Positions 1 to 39,189 of a stretch of 39,189 bases of DNA are shown in pieces. The position numbers and the translations under genes were made by a program. The DNA lies in the NCBI GenBank assembly GCA_029548565.1, contig JAKPNF010000123.1, positions 1 through 39,189 of the forward strand. The letters run 5' to 3'. The notes below the pieces were generated by a model. It searched no databases. It had not been told where the DNA came from and saw only the letters and a program-made list of their open reading frames with translations. Source of the DNA: Verrucomicrobiota bacterium. Lineage in GTDB: Bacteria > Verrucomicrobiota > Verrucomicrobiia > Opitutales > JAKPNF01. Every line of letters starts with the position of its first letter. The first letter of the stretch is position 1.

Positions 1-21
1 GGGGGGGGGGGGGTCGAATTC
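1..21. other. Probable sequence-end artefact (poly-G plus EcoRI site)
   Basis: The window opens with 13 consecutive G and then TCGAATTC, which contains an EcoRI site at 16-21. A pure G run directly at a sequence end, followed by a polylinker-like site, is better explained by a cloning junction or low-quality base calls than by genomic sequence. The sequence from about position 22 onward has normal complexity. Confidence 0.5.
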
Positions 22-238
22 ATCATGTTAAAAATGGCCTTACAAAAATAGCAATACTAAGGCAGACAGACAAAAATTAATCTTGTTCCAAAAAAATTTA
101 AAAAATAAAAAAAAGTTTCCCCGCGAGCGCCCTACACGGTCGCACACAAAAGAAAAACCCTCGATTCCAAAACCAAAAACAAACCTTCCTGTCAGCAAAT
201 TCAGCTTACGACCATCTGTCGCCTCACATCAGCAAAAC

Positions 239-320
239 GGATGCGCAGCATCCGCCATAAAATTTTTTTGAAAGGGGTGCGGGGAAGACTTTTTTTTATT
301 TAAAAAAAGTTTTCCCCGCA
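239..320 (-). repeat. Dispersed 3'-end repeat, copy 1 (after htpX)
   Basis: Read from the htpX stop on the minus strand, the element is a long hairpin (320 to 278) followed by an AT-rich spacer and the 15-base palindrome GGATGCTGCGCATCC (253-239). The hairpin arms, TGCGGGGAA..., are 19 bases with one mismatch and a 5-base loop. Related copies with the same order and orientation follow galK (8885-9136) and purU (15149-15223). The palindrome is identical in all three. Confidence 0.75.
278..320 (-). terminator. Terminator-type hairpin after htpX
   Basis: Two 19-base arms (278-296 and 302-320) pair with one mismatch around the loop TATTT. The GC-rich outer half and A/T-rich inner half give a stem with T-runs on both strands. 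It starts 22 bases after the htpX stop and probably ends the TIGR03790-lemA-htpX transcript. Confidence 0.6.
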
Positions 321-12519: not shown

Positions 12520-14082
12520 TCACCGTTTTTTAGACGCTTTTTTGGCTTTCTTCCCTCCGCTCCAATTGGCGTCGCTGGTGGCGGCCAGGCGTTTGGCGTG
12601 GTCGGTGATGGCGGCCAACTCCTTGACTTTTTTCAGGTCGCAGCCCAGTGCCTGGGCAACGCGTGTGCCGTAGTCCTTGTCGGCCAGGTAGCAGTGGGCG
12701 GCGTGGCGGTGGCGGATGTTGGATGAAACGCCTTCCATGTTGCGCGCGGTGTTTTCGACCAAGACTTTTTTCTGTGGTTCCTTCATGAGGCGATAGAGGT
12801 CGCCCGGCTGGTAAAACACATTGTCGCTGGTCTCGTCGGCGGGGTTGTAATGATGCATTTCGCCTTCCAGCGCCAGCGGGGGCTCGCGGAATTTGTCCTG
12901 CTGCGCCCACTGCCCCATGCTGTTGGGCTCGTAGCCCTTGGTCGCCCCGTAGTTGCCGTCCACGCGCATCAGCCCGTCGCGGTGATAGCCATGCACGGGG
13001 CAACGCGCCTGGTTGACAGGGATCTGGTCGTGGTTGACGCCCAAGCGGTAGCGCTGCGCGTCGCCGTAGGAGAACAGGCGTCCCTGCAGCATTTTGTCGG
13101 GCGAAAAACCGATGCCCGGCACGATGTGGGCGGGGTTGAAAGCCGCCTGCTCCACGTCCGCAAAATAATTTTCCGGATTGCGGTTAAGCTCCATGACGCC
13201 GACTTTTATGAGCGGATAGTCTTTGTGGCTCCACACCTTGGTCAGATCGAAGGGGTTTTCCTTGTGCTTGCGCGCCTGCGCTTCGGTCATGATCTGGAAG
13301 TAGAGCGTCCAGCGCGGGAAGTCTCCGCGCTCGATCGCCTCGAACAAGTCGCGCCCGTGGCTTTCGCGGTCTTTGCCCACAATCGCCTCGGCCTGCGCGT
13401 CCGTGATGTTCTTGATGCCTTGCTGGGTGCGCAGGTGGAACTTCACCCACACGCGCTCGTTCTTGGCGTTGATCAGGCTGTAGGTGTGACTGCCAAAACC
13501 GTGCATATGCCGGTAAGTGGCGGGGATGCCACGCTCGGACATGACGATCGTCACCTGGTGCAGCGCCTCGGGCAGCATGCTCCAAAAGTCCCAGTTGCTC
13601 TGCGCCGAACGCAGGTTGCTCTTTGGGTCGCGCTTGATGGCGTGGTTCAAGTCCGGGAAGTGCAGCGGGTCGCGCATGAAGAAGACGGGCGTGTTGTTGC
13701 CCACCATGTCCCAAACGCCCTCGTCCGTATAAAACTTGATCGCAAAGCCGCGGATGTCGCGCTCGGCGTCGGCGGCACCGCGCTCGCCCGCGACGGTGGA
13801 AAAGCGCACGAACACATCGGTCTTTTTCCCGATCTTTTTAAACAGGTCGGCCTTGGTGTATTTGGTGACGTCGTTCGTCACCTTGAACGTGCCGAATGCC
13901 CCGGAGCCTTTGGCATGCATGCGGCGCTCGGGGATCACCTCGCGGTCGAAATGCGCGAGCTTTTCCATGTACCACACGTCCTGGAGCATCATCGGGCCGC
14001 GCGCGCCGGCCGTCAGGGAATGCTGGTTGTCCGAAACGGGCGCGCCCACTTCGTTGGTCAGTTTTTTGTCTTTTTTGCTCAT
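12520..14082 (-). CDS. Monofunctional heme catalase
   Basis: This 520-residue cytosolic enzyme disproportionates hydrogen peroxide. The catalytic His is in [12 protein letters not shown] (about residue 56), the catalytic Asn in VGNNTPVFF, and the heme-ligating Tyr in [14 protein letters not shown]. The length and layout match the small-subunit (clade 3) catalases. I start at ATG 14082 ([15 protein letters not shown]); a longer in-frame start at 14112 adds ten non-conserved residues. The C-terminus is a Lys-rich tail. The gene is single, diverges from purU, and ends at a strong terminator. I see no OxyR- or Fur-type site I would trust. Its presence implies exposure to oxygen. Confidence 0.95.
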
Positions 14083-14224
14083 GATGGGAGTTGGATTAAG
14101 GCGGAGACGCAAAGGAAACCGCGCTTCGAAAGGCGCAGTGTGTTACAAGTAACCCCGAAGCCCGCCGAAAGCAAGGAGCGGGGGCGTTTTTTGCCAAATG
14201 AAACTTTCCGGTTCCGCTTTTGCG

Positions 14225-16029: not shown

Positions 16030-17058
16030 ATGCCTGAAGCCGCCGACAGTTCAGAGCCTAAAGCGCCGCCCGCCATTGAGGTTAAAAATCTCACAAAGAT
16101 TTACCACGGCACAGCCGCGGTCAATGATGTCAGCTTCCAAGTCGCCCCGGGCGAGATTGTCGGCTTTCTGGGGCCAAACGGGGCGGGCAAAAGTACCACC
16201 ATGCGCATTTTGTGCGGCTTGAGCAGCGGCAACCGCGGCTGGGTGAAGGTGCACGGCGTTTCCGTGGCCACGCACCCGGAAAAGACCAAGCGCATGATCG
16301 GCTACATGCCGGAAAACAACCCCCTGCCCGAAGACCTGCGCGTGAGCGAGTACCTGCGCTACCGCGCCAAACTCAAGGAAATCCCTGCCAAGGAAATTTC
16401 AAAGCGCGTGGACGCCGTCATGGAGGTGACGGACTTGCACCGCACCGCCTACCGCCGCGTCATCGGGGCTTTGTCAAAGGGGTTTCGCCAGCGCGTGGGC
16501 ATTGCCGACGCCCTGCTCTCGCGCCCCAAAGTCATCATCATGGACGAGCCGACCATCGGACTTGACCCGCACCAGATCCACGCCTTCCGGCGCTTGCTGG
16601 GCGAATTGCGCGGGCAGATGACGATCATCCTTTCCAGCCACATCCTGCCGGAGATCGAGCTTTCGACCGACCGCGTCATCATCATCAACCAGGGGCGCGT
16701 GGTGGCCGAGGGCACGCCCGCCGCCCTGCGTGCCGAATTCATGCCGCGCGCGCAGTGGAGCGTGGCGCTCAAGGTGGAGCCGGCGCGCTTTGACTTCGCG
16801 CTGGCCGGCCTCGAAAAACCCGCGAGCATCACAGCCGTGGGCGAGCCGGACGCGCAGGGCTTTCGCACCTTCAACCTCGTGGCCAATTCCGAGGACGAAT
16901 GCCTGGGCGTGGCGCTGAGCGAGCTGGCCAAAACCAACGGCTGGCCGCTGCGCCAGCTCTCCTTGCGCCAGTCCAACCTCGAGGACATTTTCATGGCGGC
17001 CACCAAGCGCTCGTGGGACGCCATCATCGCCGAAAAGAAAGCGGCCAACGCGAACTGA
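16030..17058 (+). CDS. ABC transporter ATP-binding protein, GldA-type
   Basis: This 342-residue ATPase energises the adjacent ABC-2 permease. The Walker A (GPNGAGKSTT) is near 51-60, the signature (LSKGFRQRVGIADAL) near 148-162, and Walker B with the D-loop (VIIMDEPTIGLDP) near 170-182. The H-loop His is in SSHILPEIE. A C-terminal extension of about 100 residues follows, as in many ABC-2 exporters. An N-terminal 15-residue acidic extension precedes the nucleotide-binding domain. The next genes are GldF- and GldG-like, so this is the ATPase of a Gld-type exporter. The GldA name comes from gliding Bacteroidetes; gliding itself is not implied here. Confidence 0.9.
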   Translation: MPEAADSSEPKAPPAIEVKNLTKIYHGTAAVNDVSFQVAPGEIVGFLGPNGAGKSTTMRILCGLSSGNRGWVKVHGVSVATHPEKTKRMIGYMPENNPLPEDLRVSEYLRYRAKLKEIPAKEISKRVDAVMEVTDLHRTAYRRVIGALSKGFRQRVGIADALLSRPKVIIMDEPTIGLDPHQIHAFRRLLGELRGQMTIILSSHILPEIELSTDRVIIINQGRVVAEGTPAALRAEFMPRAQWSVALKVEPARFDFALAGLEKPASITAVGEPDAQGFRTFNLVANSEDECLGVALSELAKTNGWPLRQLSLRQSNLEDIFMAATKRSWDAIIAEKKAANAN

Positions 17059-17061
17059 TTT

Positions 17062-17829
17062 ATGCGCCACTTTTTCCAGATGACCCGCAACGAACTGCGC
17101 GCCCTGTGGATCGCCCCGTCGACCTACGTGGCCGCCGTGCTGTTTTTGATCATCATGGGCGCGCTGTATTTGCTGGCGCTCGAGGAAACCGGCCCCGGCC
17201 ACGCGCCGAAAATGGAGCTGCCTTCCACGGTCTTCTTCAAAATGTTTTGGCTGCCGGTTTTCTTCATGGTGCCCATGCTCACGATGCGCTCCATCGCCGA
17301 GGAGCGCCGCCTGGGGACACTGGAGGCGCTGATGACGACCCCCATTTCCGCAGGTTCGCTGGTGGCCTCGAAGTTCACCGCCGCCTATTTGTTTTACTGC
17401 ATGCTGTGGGTGCTCACGCTCATCTTTCCGATTCTGGCCAACATGGCGCTGGGGGCACGCGGCGACCCCCGGCTGCTGGACTGGCCGTCGCTGATGGGGG
17501 GGCTGTGCTTTGTGGCGGTGTCCGGCTCGCTGTTTGTGGCGATCGGCATTTTCGCCAGTTCCATGACCCGCACGACGCTGGTGGCGGGGATGCTCTCCTT
17601 TAGCTTGCTGTTCATCGTCATCTTAAGCGGGGGGCTGCTCACGCGCCTGACTTTCGGCGACGGCATCGACCTGCCCTTTTTCGCCGAGGCGCTCGAATAT
17701 CTAAAAACCTTCCAGCATCAGGAAGACTTCGGCCGCGGCATCATCGACTCGCGCCCCTTCTTTTTTTATTTCACCAACACGCTGCTGCTTTTGGGGCTGA
17801 CGACGCTGATCGTCGAGTCCAAGACATAA
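17062..17829 (+). CDS. ABC-2 type permease, GldF-like
   Basis: This 255-residue membrane protein has six hydrophobic segments. It shows the ABC-2 hallmark MRSIAEERRLGTLEALMTTPIS between the second and third segments. It starts three bases after the ATPase gene and is followed four bases later by a GldG-like gene, the standard order of this family. The substrate is unknown. The start ATG directly precedes a basic amphipathic stretch typical of the family. Confidence 0.88.
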   Translation: MRHFFQMTRNELRALWIAPSTYVAAVLFLIIMGALYLLALEETGPGHAPKMELPSTVFFKMFWLPVFFMVPMLTMRSIAEERRLGTLEALMTTPISAGSLVASKFTAAYLFYCMLWVLTLIFPILANMALGARGDPRLLDWPSLMGGLCFVAVSGSLFVAIGIFASSMTRTTLVAGMLSFSLLFIVILSGGLLTRLTFGDGIDLPFFAEALEYLKTFQHQEDFGRGIIDSRPFFFYFTNTLLLLGLTTLIVESKT

Positions 17830-17833
17830 TCTC

Positions 17834-19327
17834 ATGGCCCGCTTTGAAGATTTTCGGGAAATCCGCTGGATAAAGCTAGGCAACCGTCTGGCGCAGGTGG
17901 CGCTGAGCTTGCTCTTGGCGCTCGGGCTGAATTATCTGGCGGCGATCCATTTTACGCGCACGGATTTGACACGCGAGCACCAGCACTCCCTCTCACCCGA
18001 GACGCTGGCGCATCTTGAGGAAATCATGCGCGCGGCGCAGACAGAACCCATCACGCTGTACGTGACGCTGCCGCGCGAGACAGACAACAAGGAAGTGGCC
18101 GAGGTGCTCAAGGACATCGATCCGCTGTTGCGCGAGTTCGAGTTCGCGGGGCGCAAGGACGGAAAAAAGTTTATCACGCTGGAAAACGTCGACATTTTTC
18201 AGCAGCGCACCAAGGCGCAGGAGTTGCGCGAGCGCTACCATGTCACCGACACTTTGACCGTCATGGTGGTCGCGCGCGGGGATCGCTACCGGCAGATTTC
18301 CGTGAAGGATTTGTACGAGCAAAAAGACGGCGTGCCGACCGCGTTTTTGGGCGAGCGCGTGATCGCCTCTGCCCTGCTCGACGTGGCCGAGCAGCAAAAC
18401 CAAAAAATTTATTTCCTGCAAGGCCACGGCGAGATGAAGCCCGACGACGTCAACCCGATGGACGGGGCCTCCGCCGCGCGCAACGCCCTGCAGCAGCGCA
18501 ATTTCACGGTCGAGGCGCTCACGCTGGCCGACAAGGTGCCCGAGGACGCCGCCATGCTCGTCATCGCCGGGCCGCAGGCCACCTATTTGCCCAAAGAAGT
18601 GGAGGCGCTGCGCCGCTATCTCGAGGACAGGCAGGGGCGCATTTTGGCGCTCATCGACCCGCGCACCGACCACGGGTTGAGCCAGCTTTTGTACGAATGG
18701 GGGATTTATTCCGACGATCGGCTCATCATGGAGATGATTCAAGGCGGCGTGTCGGCCGACAACCTCACGATCCTGACCTTCGCCGACCACCCGATCACCC
18801 GCGCGCTGGCGGACTACCAATTTTCCGTGCAGCTGGGCCCCACGCGCCCCGCCCGGCGCGACGAGGGCGCCCCGCTGGACGAGCGCCTGGTCGTGCGCGA
18901 CTTGATGCTCAGCTCGCCGCACAGCTGGGCGGAGCTTGATTTCCGCGACTCGTCCAAGACGGCCGCGCAGTCCTTCGACCCCGCCCGCGACATTCAGGGA
19001 CCCATCCCCGTGGCCGCGCTGGCCGAGCGCAGCGCCGGCTCGCAGATCGGCATCTCGCTGCGCGGGGGGCGCATGCTGCTGGTAGGATCCTCGGGGCTGA
19101 TCGCCAACCGCACCTTCAGCGTGCCGGGCAACCAGTGGCTGTTTTTGAACATGGTCAACTGGATGCTCGACAAAAACAGCCGCCTGAACGTGCCGCCCAA
19201 GGCGATACGCACCTTCTCGCTGCCGCTGGCCAAGGACGACCTGCGGCGCGTCGGCCTTTACTTCGTGCTGCTGCCGGCCTTTGTGGCGCTGACAGGTGTC
19301 ATTGTTTTTTGGATACGCCGCCGTTAA
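17834..19327 (+). CDS. GldG-like ABC transporter auxiliary protein
   Basis: This 497-residue protein has one membrane helix near the N-terminus (about 24-42) and one at the extreme C-terminus (about 470-493, ending RRR). The large domain between them is expected in the periplasm. The domain matches the ABC_transp_aux/GldG pattern, with SLSPETLAHLEEI at the start, ITLYVTLPRE, KIYFLQGHGEMKP, and MLVIAGPQATYLPKEVEALRRYLE. These proteins are needed with GldF and GldA for exporter function in gliding bacteria. It is coupled to the permease gene (4 bases) and to the DUF4340 gene (12 bases). Confidence 0.85.
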   Translation: MARFEDFREIRWIKLGNRLAQVALSLLLALGLNYLAAIHFTRTDLTREHQHSLSPETLAHLEEIMRAAQTEPITLYVTLPRETDNKEVAEVLKDIDPLLREFEFAGRKDGKKFITLENVDIFQQRTKAQELRERYHVTDTLTVMVVARGDRYRQISVKDLYEQKDGVPTAFLGERVIASALLDVAEQQNQKIYFLQGHGEMKPDDVNPMDGASAARNALQQRNFTVEALTLADKVPEDAAMLVIAGPQATYLPKEVEALRRYLEDRQGRILALIDPRTDHGLSQLLYEWGIYSDDRLIMEMIQGGVSADNLTILTFADHPITRALADYQFSVQLGPTRPARRDEGAPLDERLVVRDLMLSSPHSWAELDFRDSSKTAAQSFDPARDIQGPIPVAALAERSAGSQIGISLRGGRMLLVGSSGLIANRTFSVPGNQWLFLNMVNWMLDKNSRLNVPPKAIRTFSLPLAKDDLRRVGLYFVLLPAFVALTGVIVFWIRRR

Positions 19328-19339
19328 CCGCTTTTTTCC

Positions 19340-21193
19340 ATGCGATTCAAACTCACACTGATTTTGCTGCTGGCCAACCTCGTGGTGTTCTACCTGATCT
19401 GGTCGCTGGGCAGGCCGGATCTGGAGCCGCCCGCGCAGTTCGAGCTGCCCGACAGCGCGACGGTCGACCGCATCAGCGTCGAGGGCAAAAGCCTGCCGCG
19501 GCCCTACCGCTTCGAGGCCGGGCGCGACGGGCGCTGGGCGATCACCTCCCCCGTGCAGTGGCCGGCCAACGTGCACGCGCTGGGCAACATCCTCTCCCAA
19601 CTGCAACTGCTGCGCCGCGAGATCAGCTTCCCCGTCTCGCAGATCGAGGCGCGCGGACTCTCGCTGGCCGACTACGGGCTGGCGGATCCCTCGCTCAAGC
19701 TCAGCGTCGGCTCGGCGGACAAGGACTATGTTTTTGAAATCGGCGCGCGCACGCAGATCGGCCAGCGCGTATACATGCTCTCGCCCAAGGGCGACCTCAT
19801 CATCGTGGCGCCCGACGAGCTGCTCGAATTGCTAAGCACCGACATCGAGCAACTGCGCGCGCCCACCATCTTCACCGTGCCGACCTTCGAGGTGCGCGGG
19901 CTGTCCATCCGCATCGCCGAGGGCGACGGCGCGCAGGCGGGCGCTTCCGCGCAGCGCGTGGGGCTGGTCAAGACCAAGGACGGCTGGCGCATAGAAACGC
20001 CCGTGCAGGCCGACGCCGACGCCCGCATGGTCGAAAGCCAAATAGCGGCGCTGGAAGCCCTGCAGGCCAACCGCTTCATCCAAACCCCCGACGCCAGCCC
20101 GGCGGCTTACGGGTTGACCAACCCGGCCATGCGTGTGTCGCTGGAGGGCAACCAGCGCCAGACGCTCCTGCTGGGGCGCAGCGTGCCGCAGCAAAAACCC
20201 GCGCAATATTACGCGCAGCTCGAGGGCAACCCCGCCATTTTCACGGTCAACGCCGCGCTGTTTGACGCACTGAAAAACGCGCAGGAACTTTTGCGCGAGC
20301 GCCACATCCTGCCCTTCGACCCCGCGGCGCTCAGCGCCATCGACATTGTGGACGAACACGGCGCGCGCGTGCGCTTGCAGGTGCTTGAAAACGGCTCGTG
20401 GCAGGTGATGGGCGAAGCCAACGGCACCCGGCTTGAACCCATACGCGCCGACGACAATGAAGTCGCGCGTCTGGTCGGCGCGCTGCGCACGTTAAAGGCC
20501 GGCGCCTTCACCAACGACGCGCCCACCCAGGAAAATCTTTCCGCTTACGGGTTTGACAAGCCGCTGCGCACGGTCACGCTCTCGCTGCAAAACAGCGAGC
20601 CGCTGGTGCTGACGCTCGGCAGCATGCAGACCGAAGAAGGCAAACTGCTTTACGCGCGCACCAACCGCGCGCAGGGCGTCTATCAGGTGCACCCCGCCAT
20701 TCTCATGCTGCTGTCGCTGCAAAGCGCGCAGTACCGCTGGCGCGTGCTCGAGCAGTTGCCGGCCCCCGCCATGCTCACGCGGCTTTCGCTCAAAGACCTG
20801 TCCGCCGGCAAAGTCATTTTTGAAGGCAACCCCGCCGAGCTGCCCAAGGAATTGGACGAGGCCAAAAAGGCCGCCGTGCAGCAGATCGCAGCCGCGCTGA
20901 AAAATTTCGAGGTCGCCCAGTACCTTGAAAAATCGTCCGACGAGGGCTGCTATCACGACGGGCGTTTGCTGCCGTGGCGCTATGAGTTGACGGGCTCCGC
21001 CGCATTGTCTTCAGGCGCCGACGCAAAAACGCAGGCGCTTGCCTACCGCTTCACCGCGCGCCAGGGCGGCACCGTGCAGGGGGGCTTTTCCGCCCAGTCC
21101 AACACCGCCTTTTTGCTCGCCCAGCCGCTGATCGACGCGCTGTTCACCCTGACCGACGAGGCCCCCGCCGCCGCGCCCGCCGCGCAAAAATAG
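19340..21193 (+). CDS. DUF4340 domain-containing protein
   Basis: This 617-residue protein has an N-terminal membrane helix (MRFKLTLILLLANLVVFYLIW, split here as about residues 3-20) and an all-beta-like remainder. It contains repeated units with the pattern YGLADPSLKLSVG, YGLTNPAMRVSLEG and YGFDKPLRTVTLSL. The repeated Y-G-L/F-x-x-P is the DUF4340 hallmark. At least three such units are visible (about 110-125, 255-270, 400-415). DUF4340 genes commonly follow GldG-like genes, and the function is unknown. A single-pass periplasmic protein is most likely. Confidence 0.8.
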   Translation: MRFKLTLILLLANLVVFYLIWSLGRPDLEPPAQFELPDSATVDRISVEGKSLPRPYRFEAGRDGRWAITSPVQWPANVHALGNILSQLQLLRREISFPVSQIEARGLSLADYGLADPSLKLSVGSADKDYVFEIGARTQIGQRVYMLSPKGDLIIVAPDELLELLSTDIEQLRAPTIFTVPTFEVRGLSIRIAEGDGAQAGASAQRVGLVKTKDGWRIETPVQADADARMVESQIAALEALQANRFIQTPDASPAAYGLTNPAMRVSLEGNQRQTLLLGRSVPQQKPAQYYAQLEGNPAIFTVNAALFDALKNAQELLRERHILPFDPAALSAIDIVDEHGARVRLQVLENGSWQVMGEANGTRLEPIRADDNEVARLVGALRTLKAGAFTNDAPTQENLSAYGFDKPLRTVTLSLQNSEPLVLTLGSMQTEEGKLLYARTNRAQGVYQVHPAILMLLSLQSAQYRWRVLEQLPAPAMLTRLSLKDLSAGKVIFEGNPAELPKELDEAKKAAVQQIAAALKNFEVAQYLEKSSDEGCYHDGRLLPWRYELTGSAALSSGADAKTQALAYRFTARQGGTVQGGFSAQSNTAFLLAQPLIDALFTLTDEAPAAAPAAQK

Positions 21194-21211
21194 CCGCCTT
21201 TTTCGCGTGTC

Positions 21212-24085
21212 ATGAGCGCCGAACAAGCCAGCTTTTTTCGCCGCCTGACGCGCGGGCTTTTTCGCGCGGGCGCAAAATTTTTCCGGCTGGCGCTGTGGCT
21301 TTTTTTATTGGTTCAGATTTTTTTGCTGGTCGGCCTGTTGCGCGACGACGTGTTCACGCTGCCGCAGGCCGCCTTGCGCCTCGCACAGGAAAGACTGGCC
21401 GCGCAAAACGTGTTTTTGTCCGCGCAACGCTGCGCCCTGACGCCGACGGGCTGGCTCGTGCTGGAGGATGCCTCCCTCTACGACGACGCGCGGCACTCCG
21501 AACCTTTGCTGCGCGCCGGAAAAATTGCCGTGCGCCCGAGCTGGTCGCGCCTGCTCATGGGAAATTTTTTGCCCGCGCGCGCGTATCTGGAAGACGGCGC
21601 GCTGCACTGCCCTTCTTACCGCAGCATGGGCGGGCAAAACACGCCGGTCTTGCAGGACATCGTGCTGCAAGTTTCCCAAAAGGACGGGAATCTTTGGAAA
21701 ATCGAAAAGGGGTTTTTGCGCATTTTTAACCTGACAGCCGGCGCGCACGGAAATTTTTACCTGCCGCAAACAACACACGGTGCCCCCGCCGACAAGGACG
21801 CGCCCGCAACCCCCGCAACGCCCTTCATGCGCCAGATCGCCGACATCGCAGCGCAGGCGCAAAAGGCCGAGGCCGTGCTCGCGCACTTTAAAAACCCGCA
21901 CCTAAAAATCGCCCTACGCACACAGGGAAAAGACACGCTGATCGAGGCCACCGCTCTGGCCGACGGCGGGCAGCTCGAGCCCCAGGTACACGCGGGCGCC
22001 TTCACGCTCAATGCGCTTATGCGCTTTGACGGTAAAACCCTCGCCCCCGCACGCCATGTGCTGGGAAACGCGGCCGACCTGCGCTACACAGTGCCCGCCG
22101 CCGACACCGCGCAAACGCCGCAAAACGTGCGCGTGGGCACTGCCCTGCTGCGCGCGGTGCCTTCGGGGAAAATCGAAAAAGATATCAAGGACACTTTTTC
22201 GGACATTTATCTGGATCTGTTCGACGTCGAAGGCTACGACGCCCACATCGACGCCGCGCACGTGCACGCAAGCGCCCTGCCGCTGCCGCTTGTTCAAGCA
22301 GACGCGCGCGTGCGCGTGGGCGAGCACACCGTCGCCTTGCAGGTGCAGGCCGACATCGAGGCCAAGACGATTCAGGCCGAGCTTTCCGGCAGGGTCGACC
22401 CGCGCGCGCTGCTGCCGGAGAGCCTGCTGCAAGACCCGGGGGTGCGCGGTATCCAATTTTCAAATACGCCCGAATGGTCGCTGCGCGCCGTGGCCTCCCA
22501 TGATGGGCAGGCGTTTGTCTTCGACCACGCCACTGCTACCTTGCGCCTGTACGAGACGCGCTACGAAAGCCTTCACCTGCACGGCGCCTACGCGATCGCG
22601 CGCGTGGACACGCAGGGCGTGCGGACAGACACGCTGCGGCTGTGGGGCGAGGGTTTTTACATTCAGGGGGCCTACCTTCAGGACTTCGACAACAGCTCCT
22701 ACCGCTTTTTGCTGCGCGGCGAAATCCCGCCGCACCAGCTCGACGCCCTCATGGAATCGTGGTGGCAGGACATTTGGCGCGAGTTCGACGTCGAGGGCAA
22801 TCCCCCCTACGCCGACATTGACTTTGGCGGCAAATGGGCGACCGACATCGACACCAAACTGGTCGGCGAGATACGCCTGAACGACTTTTTCTTCCGCACC
22901 GCCCGCTGGCAAAACGGGCGCGTCGGCATCCGCCTGAAACCGGAGTACACAGCGATCGACAACATTTTATTGTACGGCGAACAGGGCACGCTCAACGGAA
23001 ATTTTCGGTGGTTCTACAAAACCGACCTGCGCCCGCGCCTGATGTTCATGCAGCATTTGTCGATCCGCAGCACACTGGGGCTGGAGTTGCTGGGTAAAGT
23101 TGGAGGGGAGGACGTCGAGCTGATCGCCCGCGAGCTTACCAGCGAAAAGCCGCCAAAACTCTCCGGCGAATTTTTCACCTGGGGCGTCGGCTCCGCGGTG
23201 GCGGGCGAGAATTTTATCACGCTCAGCGCGCTCATCGAGGGCCCGGGCACGGTCTTCGGTATTCCGGTGGCCGGTGTGGCGCTCAATGCGCAAATCAACA
23301 ACCGCGGCGTGCAGCTCTCGGACATCAATCTGGGGCTTTCCGGTGGAAAGATGCTGGGCACTGTCACCCTCTCGCCCACCTCAAAGGGCACCCGCGCGGA
23401 CTTCGGCTTCGAGCTGACCGACGCCGACCACGAGCGCTTTTTGGACGACATCGCGCGCATGCAAACCTTTGAGGAGGCGCACTCCAAAAACGCCAAGGTG
23501 TTCGAGCATCCCCCGATCACGGACAGCCTGGATGGCGACATGAAGTTGACCGCCAAAGGCTCTGGCATCTTCGGCCACACCGACACCTTTAACGGCAAGG
23601 GCGCGGTGCATATCGACGGTGCGGACATCGGGAAACTCAATCTGCTGGGCGGGCTTTCCCGTTTTCTGGAAAACACCGTGCTGCCTTCCGGCCAATTGCA
23701 TTTCACCCATGCCGACAGCGGCATCGTCATGAGCAACGGCGTGCTGATTTTCCCAGAGGTGGCCATCACGGGACCCACCGCCAAGGTCGACGCGGCCGGC
23801 TGGCTCAACCTCGCCGACCAGTCGCTGGATTTCAACATCCACTTTTACCCGCTGGGGGCGATGGACTCCTCCTTCGTCCAATTTTTGATGACGCCCACCC
23901 GCGCGGTGTCCAACGTCTTCGCCGTGACGCTCAACGGCTCCTCCAAAAACCCCAACTGGAGCTTGAATATTTCCCCCTCGCGACTTTTCACTTTCAGCAA
24001 GCAGTCCCCGCAGTTGCCCGAGCTGCCGGCAGCCGCGCAAAAACCCGCCCTTACCCCGATCTCCCTTGAAAAACGCGCCAATTGA
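21212..24085 (+). CDS. Large AsmA-like (AsmA/YhdP/TamB-type) envelope protein
   Basis: This 957-residue protein has one N-terminal membrane helix (about 24-45). A long beta-rich body follows, and the C-terminal third has an AsmA-like signature: NRGVQLSDINLGLSGGKMLGTV, SLDGDMKLTAKGSGIF, FNGKGAVHIDGADIGKL and VDAAGWLNLADQSLDFNIHF. AsmA-like proteins form long periplasmic beta-grooves thought to carry phospholipids between membranes. The position at the end of a Gld-type exporter unit suggests a role in the same envelope process. It starts 18 bases after the DUF4340 gene. The exact subfamily is uncertain. Confidence 0.75.
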   Translation: MSAEQASFFRRLTRGLFRAGAKFFRLALWLFLLVQIFLLVGLLRDDVFTLPQAALRLAQERLAAQNVFLSAQRCALTPTGWLVLEDASLYDDARHSEPLLRAGKIAVRPSWSRLLMGNFLPARAYLEDGALHCPSYRSMGGQNTPVLQDIVLQVSQKDGNLWKIEKGFLRIFNLTAGAHGNFYLPQTTHGAPADKDAPATPATPFMRQIADIAAQAQKAEAVLAHFKNPHLKIALRTQGKDTLIEATALADGGQLEPQVHAGAFTLNALMRFDGKTLAPARHVLGNAADLRYTVPAADTAQTPQNVRVGTALLRAVPSGKIEKDIKDTFSDIYLDLFDVEGYDAHIDAAHVHASALPLPLVQADARVRVGEHTVALQVQADIEAKTIQAELSGRVDPRALLPESLLQDPGVRGIQFSNTPEWSLRAVASHDGQAFVFDHATATLRLYETRYESLHLHGAYAIARVDTQGVRTDTLRLWGEGFYIQGAYLQDFDNSSYRFLLRGEIPPHQLDALMESWWQDIWREFDVEGNPPYADIDFGGKWATDIDTKLVGEIRLNDFFFRTARWQNGRVGIRLKPEYTAIDNILLYGEQGTLNGNFRWFYKTDLRPRLMFMQHLSIRSTLGLELLGKVGGEDVELIARELTSEKPPKLSGEFFTWGVGSAVAGENFITLSALIEGPGTVFGIPVAGVALNAQINNRGVQLSDINLGLSGGKMLGTVTLSPTSKGTRADFGFELTDADHERFLDDIARMQTFEEAHSKNAKVFEHPPITDSLDGDMKLTAKGSGIFGHTDTFNGKGAVHIDGADIGKLNLLGGLSRFLENTVLPSGQLHFTHADSGIVMSNGVLIFPEVAITGPTAKVDAAGWLNLADQSLDFNIHFYPLGAMDSSFVQFLMTPTRAVSNVFAVTLNGSSKNPNWSLNISPSRLFTFSKQSPQLPELPAAAQKPALTPISLEKRAN

Positions 24086-34092: not shown

Positions 34093-35352
34093 ATGAAAAA
34101 AATCCACGCCGCAGTGTGCGCGCTTGCGTCCGTTGCCATTTTGTATCCCTCCGGTTATCAGGTCATCGACCAAGGCTCCTCCAACATGGGCACCGCCATG
34201 GCGGGCGCCGTCACCAACGCCAACAACGACGCCTCCGCCGCGTTCTGGAACCCGTCGGCGGCCGTGTTTGTCGAGGGCAAGGGACGCTTGGAGCAAGGCG
34301 TCGCCTTCATCGTGCCGAGCTTCGAACTTAAAAACAGCTCGGGCACCCACCCCGCCGCCGCGGGCGGCGGCCCCATCAACGGCGTCGACGGTGGAAACGG
34401 CGGAAATTTCGCCTGGGTTCCCAGCTTGTTTGGCACCTATAAATTTGACGAGAAACTCTGGGGCACCCTTGCCATCACCGCCCCCTACGGGCTGGAAACC
34501 GAATACAGCGACGGCACCAATTTTATCGGGCGCTACCACGGCATCCGCAGCAAGCTCATGACGATCGACGTCAACCCCTCGCTGGCGTACAAATTCTCGG
34601 ACGAGTTTTCGATCGCCGGCGGTGTTTCCATCCAGTACATCGACGCGATACTCACCAGCCACATGGCCGGCGACACCTGGACGGAAGTCTCCGGCGACGG
34701 TTACTCCGTCGGCTTCAACCTGGGCGCCACCTACCAGTACGCCAAAGGCGGGCGCATCGGCGCGGCCTTCCGCTCGCAAGTCAACCACAAGCTCCACGGC
34801 ACGATGCTTATGCCCGGCAACAAGCTCGGCCGCCTGGAAGAGCAGGACATCTCTTGCGATCTGACGATCCCCAACTCCTTTGTCGTGGGTATTTACCAAC
34901 GGCTGGGCGGCTCTTTTTCGGAATTCGCCGTGATGCTCGACTACGGCTGGACAAACTGGAAGCAGTTCGACGAGCTGGTTATCAAGGGCGAAGACACCAC
35001 TTCCGTCACACAGGAGCGCTGGAAAAACACCTCGCGCCTATCCTTCGGCATCCACTACTACCCTTCCTGGAACGAAAACCTCACCTTCCGTGCCGGCTGC
35101 GCTTGGGACGAAAGCCCGATCAGCTCGCCGGAATTCCGCACCGTGCGCATCCCGGACAATGACCGTATTTGGGCGAGCTTCGGCGTGGGCTACACTTGGA
35201 ACAACATCCAATTCGACCTAGCCTACACCTATTTGATGTTCGACGATTCGTTCATGAACAACACGTCTGAGGCCATGACCAAAGGCACCGTCACGGGCAC
35301 CTACGTGGGCCACGCGCATATCGTGGGCATCACAGTGGGTTTAAAGTTTTAG
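34093..35352 (+). CDS. FadL/OmpP1-family outer-membrane channel
   Basis: This 419-residue protein has a short signal peptide, then the FadL N-terminal pattern: SGYQVIDQGSSNMGTAMAGAV followed by NNDASAAFWNPSAAVF (the NPA-type box). The rest alternates in the way of a beta-barrel, with aromatic strand ends (FDLAYTYLMF) and a final strand AHIVGITVGLKF ending in Phe, as outer-membrane assembly requires. FadL-type channels pass hydrophobic molecules such as long-chain fatty acids or aromatics. The mature N-terminus would plug the barrel. The gene is single and diverges from the GH2 unit. The substrate is not identifiable. Confidence 0.85.
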   Translation: MKKIHAAVCALASVAILYPSGYQVIDQGSSNMGTAMAGAVTNANNDASAAFWNPSAAVFVEGKGRLEQGVAFIVPSFELKNSSGTHPAAAGGGPINGVDGGNGGNFAWVPSLFGTYKFDEKLWGTLAITAPYGLETEYSDGTNFIGRYHGIRSKLMTIDVNPSLAYKFSDEFSIAGGVSIQYIDAILTSHMAGDTWTEVSGDGYSVGFNLGATYQYAKGGRIGAAFRSQVNHKLHGTMLMPGNKLGRLEEQDISCDLTIPNSFVVGIYQRLGGSFSEFAVMLDYGWTNWKQFDELVIKGEDTTSVTQERWKNTSRLSFGIHYYPSWNENLTFRAGCAWDESPISSPEFRTVRIPDNDRIWASFGVGYTWNNIQFDLAYTYLMFDDSFMNNTSEAMTKGTVTGTYVGHAHIVGITVGLKF

Positions 35353-35795: not shown

Positions 35796-36572
35796 TTACT
35801 TCAGCAAGCCTAGCGTTTTCTTCACGCCGGCCACGAGATAATCGCGATTGAGCTGGGCGATGTGATCGAGTGTAATGCCCTTGGGGCAGGCGGCTTGGCA
35901 TTCGCCGAAGTTCGTGCAGTTGCCAAAGCCCTCGGCGTCCATTTGTTTGACCATGGCCAAGACGCGGCGGTCTTTCTCGGGCTTGCCTTGCGGCAGGGAG
36001 TTCAGCTGCGAGGCCTTGGCCGCCACAAAGAGCATGGCCGAGGCATTTTTGCAGGCGGCCACGCAGGCGCCGCAACCGATGCACGCGGCCGCGTCCATCG
36101 CGTAGTCGGCCACCGGCTTGGAAATGAGGATCGCGTTGGCGTCCTGGGTGCCGCCCGTGCGCGCGGAGATGAAGCCGCCGGCCTGGATGATGCGGTCAAA
36201 CGCCCCGCGGTCGACGATCAGGTCGCGGATGATGGGAAAGGACTTGCTGCGCCACGGTTCGATGGTGATGACGTCGCCGTCCTTGAACTTGCGCATGTGC
36301 AATTGGCAGACGGTGGTCTTGCGCTCGGGGCCGTGAGGAACGCCGTTGATCGTCATCGAGCACATGCCGCAGATGCCCTCGCGGCAGTCATGGTCGAACA
36401 CCACGGGCTCCTCGCCCTTGTGCACGAGCATCTCGTTCAAGATGTCGATCATCTCGAGGAACGAGGAGTCCTCGGAAACGCCGGAGAGCTTGTATTCGAC
36501 GAATTTGCCCGGGGCGCTTTTGTTTTTCTGGCGCCACATGCGCAGGGTGATTTTCATTCCTTCGCTAGACAT
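35796..36572 (-). CDS. sdhB: Succinate dehydrogenase/fumarate reductase iron-sulfur subunit
   Basis: This 258-residue subunit carries electrons from the flavoprotein to the membrane anchor. The [2Fe-2S] Cys residues are C63, C68 and C71 (CREGICGMC) with a fourth in TTVCQLHM. The remaining clusters use [14 protein letters not shown] and [16 protein letters not shown]. The insertion between these last motifs and the overall wording resemble the Bacteroidetes/Chlamydia/Verrucomicrobia (type B, diheme) branch, not the mitochondrial type. A later Met (MKITLRMW) at residue 6 is a possible start. It is the third gene of sdhCAB, 60 bases after sdhA. Confidence 0.95.
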
Positions 36573-36632: not shown

Positions 36633-38585
<1,953 letters not shown>

Positions 38586-38625: not shown

Positions 38626-39189
38626 TTATTTCGCGGCGGGCAATGGGCAAACGGTTTTTTGCGGGCACTTTGCCACGGGGCAATCGGTGCGCCCGCAGTT
38701 GTCAGCAGGCGTGCACTTGCCGCCTTTGGGGCAGTCAGCCTTGCAGGGAGCCAACGGGCAATTGACCTTCGCCTTCTCGCTGCCGTGCTTCAAGAAAATC
38801 GGGGACTGGCCGTCCCAGCCTTCCATTTTGTTGGCGGCGATGCCCTGCTCGATTTGTTTGACGGGGAAAATATTCACGCCATCCACGTACTTGGAAACAA
38901 GCACGCTGGCCGGCAGCGCGGCAAAGCCCACAAACAGCGCCAGCGCGTAAATACCCGCCAGGCAGCCGAAGACTTTTCTCAAAAGCTCGTTGCGCAGGCC
39001 GAGGGTCTGGAACAGCGAGGACGCCCCGTGGGAAATGTGGAAGGCCAGCAGCGCCACCGCCACAATATAAAAGCCCGCATACCAGTCGTTGGCAAAACCG
39101 TTGATGACCATGGCGTACACGTCGGGGATGGCCTTGCCGTCGGCGTTCACATACATGAGCGACTGGCTGACAGGCTCCAGGTTCTTCAC
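38626..39189 (-). CDS. sdhC: Succinate dehydrogenase cytochrome b subunit, partial, with Cys-rich C-terminal tail
   Basis: The window edge cuts this gene; 187 C-terminal residues are visible and the codon at the edge (GTG) is not necessarily the start. Two membrane helices remain (about visible residues 36-62 and 70-99). The first contains AFHISHG, with a His that is a likely heme ligand. In the five-helix type B anchor the C-terminus faces the periplasm. After the last helix comes a hydrophilic stretch and then a tail with eight Cys (144, 149, 153, 159, 165, 170, 175, 181), five of them followed by Pro. I know of no such tail as a standard part of this family. Confidence 0.88.
   Translation of the reverse strand: MKNLEPVSQSLMYVNADGKAIPDVYAMVINGFANDWYAGFYIVAVALLAFHISHGASSLFQTLGLRNELLRKVFGCLAGIYALALFVGFAALPASVLVSKYVDGVNIFPVKQIEQGIAANKMEGWDGQSPIFLKHGSEKAKVNCPLAPCKADCPKGGKCTPADNCGRTDCPVAKCPQKTVCPLPAAK

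Follow-up and report, generated by a model that had tools for sequence, protein, structure and literature searches.

Complex II anchors are usually viewed as minimal scaffolds for heme and quinone. In the stretch of DNA analysed here (the window; 39,189 nucleotides from a Verrucomicrobiota bacterium), the gene for one such anchor, sdhC, ends in 44 codons of which eight specify cysteine, and the question raised by this locus is what role so cysteine-rich an end might play on a core respiratory enzyme.

The sdhC gene and its protein

The gene occupies positions 38626–39189 (minus strand) as 187 C-terminal codons and a stop codon. Its 5′ part is lost because the window contig (C48) ends exactly at 39189 and cuts it, so that only the C-terminal part lies in the window, where the GTG at 39189 does not mark the start. 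It heads an operon sdhC–sdhA–sdhB, in which sdhA (36633–38585, minus strand) encodes the flavoprotein subunit (650 residues; NF005749, 1122.7 bits against a cut-off of 866) and sdhB (35796–36572, minus strand) the iron–sulfur subunit (258 residues; NF005746, 427.5 bits against a cut-off of 243), both exceeding their NCBIfam cut-offs. The original prediction had named the cut gene product SdhC. This identity is supported by a match to 9lay_C, a chain of solved structure, and by the b558-family profile TIGR02046, which matches residues 21–98 (E = 4.6e-17; 62.3 bits, model positions 134–209) and, on another contig described below, a probable N-terminal part (71.7 bits, model positions 2–88); the curated cut-off of 96 refers to the whole protein, and neither half passes it alone because each is partial. 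Histidines 51 and 54 (numbering of the in-window part, used throughout) are invariant. Profile, operon and helices together assign the protein to the b558 family as the anchor of a class B complex II (succinate dehydrogenase/fumarate reductase).

Beside the sdh genes, on the other strand (34093–35352, plus strand), lies a gene for a FadL/TodX-type outer membrane transporter (PF03349). A row of plus-strand genes at 16030–24085 of the window looks similar to an ABC cluster of the gliding type; its products are an ABC transporter ATPase, a permease-like protein, an ABC_transp_aux protein and two more proteins of membrane type.

Queried with the SdhC of a relative, the genome gave two matches, the window part and bases 9–278 of a second contig (C123); the latter match also lies at a contig end and its coverage is complementary to that of the window part. 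The C123 piece (bases 3–317, minus strand, starting at base 317; L218, L233) reads MSNNSCCCKCGFRIPSLVKKYLMALTG; it opens MSNNSCCCKCG and provides the match to TIGR02046 positions 2–88. The ends of C48 and C123 do not overlap and roughly 35–45 residues are absent between the two pieces, which probably belong to a single sdhC gene. If they do, SdhC appears to be cysteine-rich at both ends, with CCCKC at its cytoplasmic N-terminus.

Relatives of this SdhC have five hydrophobic helices. The window part shows the fourth (residues 35–62; 39004–39087, minus strand), predicted by AlphaFold with a pLDDT of ~93–97, and the fifth (residues 68–101; 38887–38988, minus strand), also predicted by AlphaFold and coinciding with a hydropathy peak at 80–98, while the stretch between the contigs is missing. 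In most relatives lysine and arginine are generally more frequent at the N-terminus and in loops 2 and 4, and five helices with such even segments should, by the positive-inside rule, place the C-terminus on the periplasmic side, with the caveat that the SdhC tails of one family of the order (f17) are also lysine-rich. The earlier proposal that the tail follows the final helix and would, with five helices, be periplasmic is supported to this extent, the choice of side being drawn from the lysine and arginine distribution. The tail itself is predicted to be almost without structure, with a pLDDT near 50.

Composition and parts of the tail

Translation of the reading frame 38626–39189 (minus strand), which has no internal stop, gives a C-terminus of ...KVNCPLAPCKADCPKGGKCTPADNCGRTDCPVAKCPQKTVCPLPAAK followed by the stop codon. 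The final 44 residues, here termed the appendix (residues 144–187; 38626–38760 including the stop codon, minus strand; pLDDT ~45–57), contain cysteines at 144, 149, 153, 159, 165, 170, 175 and 181, with successive gaps of 4, 3, 5, 5, 4, 4 and 5, and Cys-Pro pairs at 144, 153, 170, 175 and 181. Translation thus confirms the eight cysteines, five Cys-Pro pairs and gaps of 3–5 first noticed here, together with a clean frame ending 40 bases before the start of sdhA. TGC is the codon for all eight cysteines, and with a GC3 of 0.71 in the tail against 0.80–0.84 upstream the frame still looks coding. At a background of 1–2% cysteine, eight in 44 residues has a binomial probability of ~1e-8 to 2e-6; a minimum gap of 3, given eight cysteines in 44 positions, has a random probability of 0.0026, so that the even spacing is also unusual. 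Cysteine makes up 1.17% of a sample of the genome (20 stretches and the window, ~12% of the genome; 183 heuristically called ORFs, 259 kb), and only two of these 183 ORFs have at least four cysteines within their last 45 residues, namely SdhC (eight) and a vitamin B12-dependent ribonucleotide reductase (six). The cysteine-rich tail is real and far from chance.

Sequence comparison divides the tail into two parts. The first, residues ~102–143 (38761–38886, minus strand), is an extension without cysteine that alignments and a profile search relate to the post-helix extensions of two families of the order, f17 and f23, with which it aligns in frame. Across 384 genomes of the class, a profile of helix 5 plus the extension recovered the extension only in f1 (the family of this SdhC), f17 and f23, weaker matches covering mainly the helix. 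The second part, the appendix, would be lineage-specific. It has no Pfam match and no PDB match, and a search of its own genome for tail paralogues gave weak matches only, the two inspected being antisense to better reading frames. When the genome collection was scanned with octapeptides of SdhC, including two taken from the tail region, no relative was confirmed; no second genome of f1 appeared, and no description of cysteine-rich SdhC tails was found in the literature searched. The eight-cysteine appendix so far appears to be unique.

The appendix contains neither CxxC nor histidine, and no histidine follows residue 135, so that heme c and the usual Fe–S or zinc motifs do not fit. The idea that the tail might bind heme accordingly finds no support as regards heme c. 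A c-type cytochrome tail was rejected for lack of CxxCH in residues 144–187; a class F (Rieske) anchor for lack of histidine and of a PDB match, the tail having no Rieske-type Cys/His ligand set; and a metallothionein-like protein for lack of CxC, CC and CxxC (the gaps are all 3–5) and of a Pfam match. The failed motif tests make membership of these families less likely; they do not lessen the chance that the tail binds metal.

Cysteine-bearing tails in related SdhCs

Among its relatives, the tail reads as the extreme case of a cysteine-bearing habit found in several lineages. All 15 SdhCs of f17 carry one to four tail cysteines and all eight of group g35 of family f20 carry two to five; in g80 of the same family the number is 0–4, with tail cysteines present in four of six or fewer, depending on the threshold. 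Three are found in f14 g59, in f2 g44 and in Pelagicoccus mobilis, and post-helix cysteines occur also in f14 g53, while most other families of the order have no tail cysteine. Tail length and cysteine number vary greatly, even within genera. A normal anchor was expected to end soon after its last helix. This is so in Bacteroidota and other outgroups, whose SdhCs mostly stop right after helix 5, but within the order many have tails of 20–60 residues. The proposed comparison with relatives, in which a conserved spacing was to support a function, revealed cysteines in their tails too, but in smaller numbers and with different spacing.

In f20 g35, conservation is higher in cysteine columns than in the rest of the tail (0.71 versus 0.56), but in f17 it is not (0.473 versus 0.482). 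A cysteine lies just after helix 5 in 13 of the 15 f17 proteins (shifted in two of the 13), alongside at least one near the C-terminus. Cysteines near the N-terminus of SdhC are common in f20, f11 and f19, and f20 g35 and g80 have an N-terminal cluster as well, where this end is readable. N-terminal clusters such as MSASSCCSCCRPSSIG and MCSLCSF were also seen in f20 g20 (L139, L140, L154, L155, L157) and f11 (L028, L162, L172), in SdhCs whose C-terminus lies right after helix 5 or whose tail has no cysteine. A tree of 128 SdhC cores places f1 with f17, f20 g35/g80 and f16 (support 89), a tentative placement given long branches. At least two tail cysteines are present in 30 of the 128 proteins, with nine changes on the tree; the association between N-terminal and C-terminal cysteines on this tree was not significant.

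Possible roles of the tail

The best explanation, which we favour tentatively and at somewhat short of even chances, is a flexible periplasmic tail whose thiols bind soft metals or react as such. A five-helix b558-type (class B) SdhC would have had its periplasmic end lengthened by the ~40-residue extension common to two families of the order, and then by a disordered 44-residue appendix rich in cysteine, proline and lysine. The appendix would act by composition and not by a fixed fold, as clustered thiols exposed on the outside of the membrane; their likeliest task would be to bind soft metal ions such as Cu(I), Fe(II) and Zn(II) loosely, or to undergo thiol reactions beside the distal heme/quinone end of the complex. 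The real frame and strong cysteine excess favour this reading, as do the in-frame extension shared with f17 and f23, the cysteine tails of relatives, the better conserved cysteine columns of f20 g35, the probable CCCKC N-terminus and the lack of a predicted fold; varying positions combined with a recurrent preference for cysteine point to composition as what matters in the tail. It is disfavoured by a spacing from which the patterns most common in metal binding (CC, CxC and CxxC) are missing, by the widely variable number and position of the cysteines and by the f17 columns, in which cysteine is no better conserved. Exposure to oxygen also counts against it: the genome encodes one cytochrome bd oxidase (no heme-copper oxidase was found in it) and the window a catalase (12520–14112), so the cell meets oxygen and thiols could be oxidized without enzymes. 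In its favour, the thiols may stay reduced, since DsbA, DsbB and VKOR, the oxidative-folding enzymes searched for, have no match in the whole genome. The sequence and its frame, its rarity in the genome sample, the shared extension and the cysteine-bearing tails of relatives are established; from them we infer a periplasmic location, mostly reduced thiols and a metal or thiol role.

The strongest rival, and a realistic possibility, is drift, in which SdhC ends vary freely within the order and the appendix grew by local sequence expansion with no selected role. High variability of tail length and cysteine number even within genera, the lack of preferential cysteine conservation in f17 and the low predicted structure are what drift would produce; eight evenly spaced cysteines in a 44-residue stretch, compared with 1.17% for the genome, the recurrence of cysteine-bearing tails in several lineages and the preferential conservation in f20 g35 are harder to reconcile with it.

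Disulfide bonding, already raised in the original prediction, now seems unlikely. The eight cysteines would be paired within the molecule or would cross-link two anchors of a dimer, stabilizing the periplasmic end, and the description of class B enzymes as obligate dimers (PMC10238741) counts in favour of such a cross-link. An even number of cysteines at gaps of 3–5, many prolines and a periplasmic position would suit these bonds, and in f17 the cysteine after helix 5 (13 of 15) has at least one C-terminal cysteine as a potential partner. The proposal is weakened by the lack of a match to DsbA, DsbB or VKOR, to which the search was limited, and by the absence of a compact AlphaFold fold and of a cysteine spacing common to relatives.

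More doubtful still is a docking or electron-transfer tail, which would bind a partner in the periplasm, a c-type cytochrome for instance. CcsA/ResB-like cytochrome c assembly genes do occur in the genome beside a gene for a CxxCH-motif protein (L241, contig C52), and the tail is lysine-rich, but no partner gene is seen beside sdhCAB and the tail has no Fe–S or heme c motif. Known class B enzymes, moreover, react with quinone and not with a periplasmic carrier.

A further reading, which we consider very improbable, is that SdhC couples thiol chemistry to the quinone pool, the tail sensing redox state or shuttling electrons between complex II and thiols, and the CCCKC end doing the matching job in the cytoplasm; its setting would be a tail beside the periplasmic heme/quinone end in a genome where DsbA, DsbB and VKOR were not found. 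Hardly credible is an origin of the tail by assembly error or frameshift, the latter a possibility allowed for at the outset: although the assembly is in 170 contigs, with the gene at the end of one, and GC3 is somewhat lower in the tail, the tail is ~430 bases inside the contig, the segment before it aligns in frame with the extensions of relatives up to a PIF-like motif, similar cysteine-bearing tails occur in independent assemblies and sdhA follows sdhC at a normal distance.

To return to a flexible thiol tail, should such thiol-rich ends prove to bind metal or to react with the quinone pool, an outward-facing thiol function would have been gained by a core respiratory enzyme in several lineages of one order. 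Relatives with zero, three and eight tail cysteines provide a ready natural comparison.

Among known systems, class II ribonucleotide reductase has a zinc/redox tail that is the only other cysteine-rich C-terminus in the genome sample; however, it belongs to a cytoplasmic enzyme, its cysteines form CxxC pairs and it has no sequence relation to the SdhC tail. Class F and class E complex II, with a Rieske cluster and with anchors carrying zinc and a 4Fe-4S cluster, respectively (PMC10238741), likewise combine an anchor subunit with acquired cysteine-related cofactors, but their anchors are six-helix or amphipathic with defined cofactor sites, whereas the tail described here has no histidine or such motif. 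Closer are the SdhCs of f17 and f20 (g35, g80), which share cysteines after the last helix and, in f17, the extension; they differ in having 0–5 tail cysteines, with other spacing and often with CxxC or CC. The b558 SdhCs and class B anchors (TIGR02046, PMC10238741, 9lay_C) share the helical core, the histidine positions and an operon that also includes sdhA and sdhB; in outgroup members and in 9lay_C the chain stops no more than a few residues after helix 5, whereas the present SdhC continues for ~86 more residues that include its eight cysteines.
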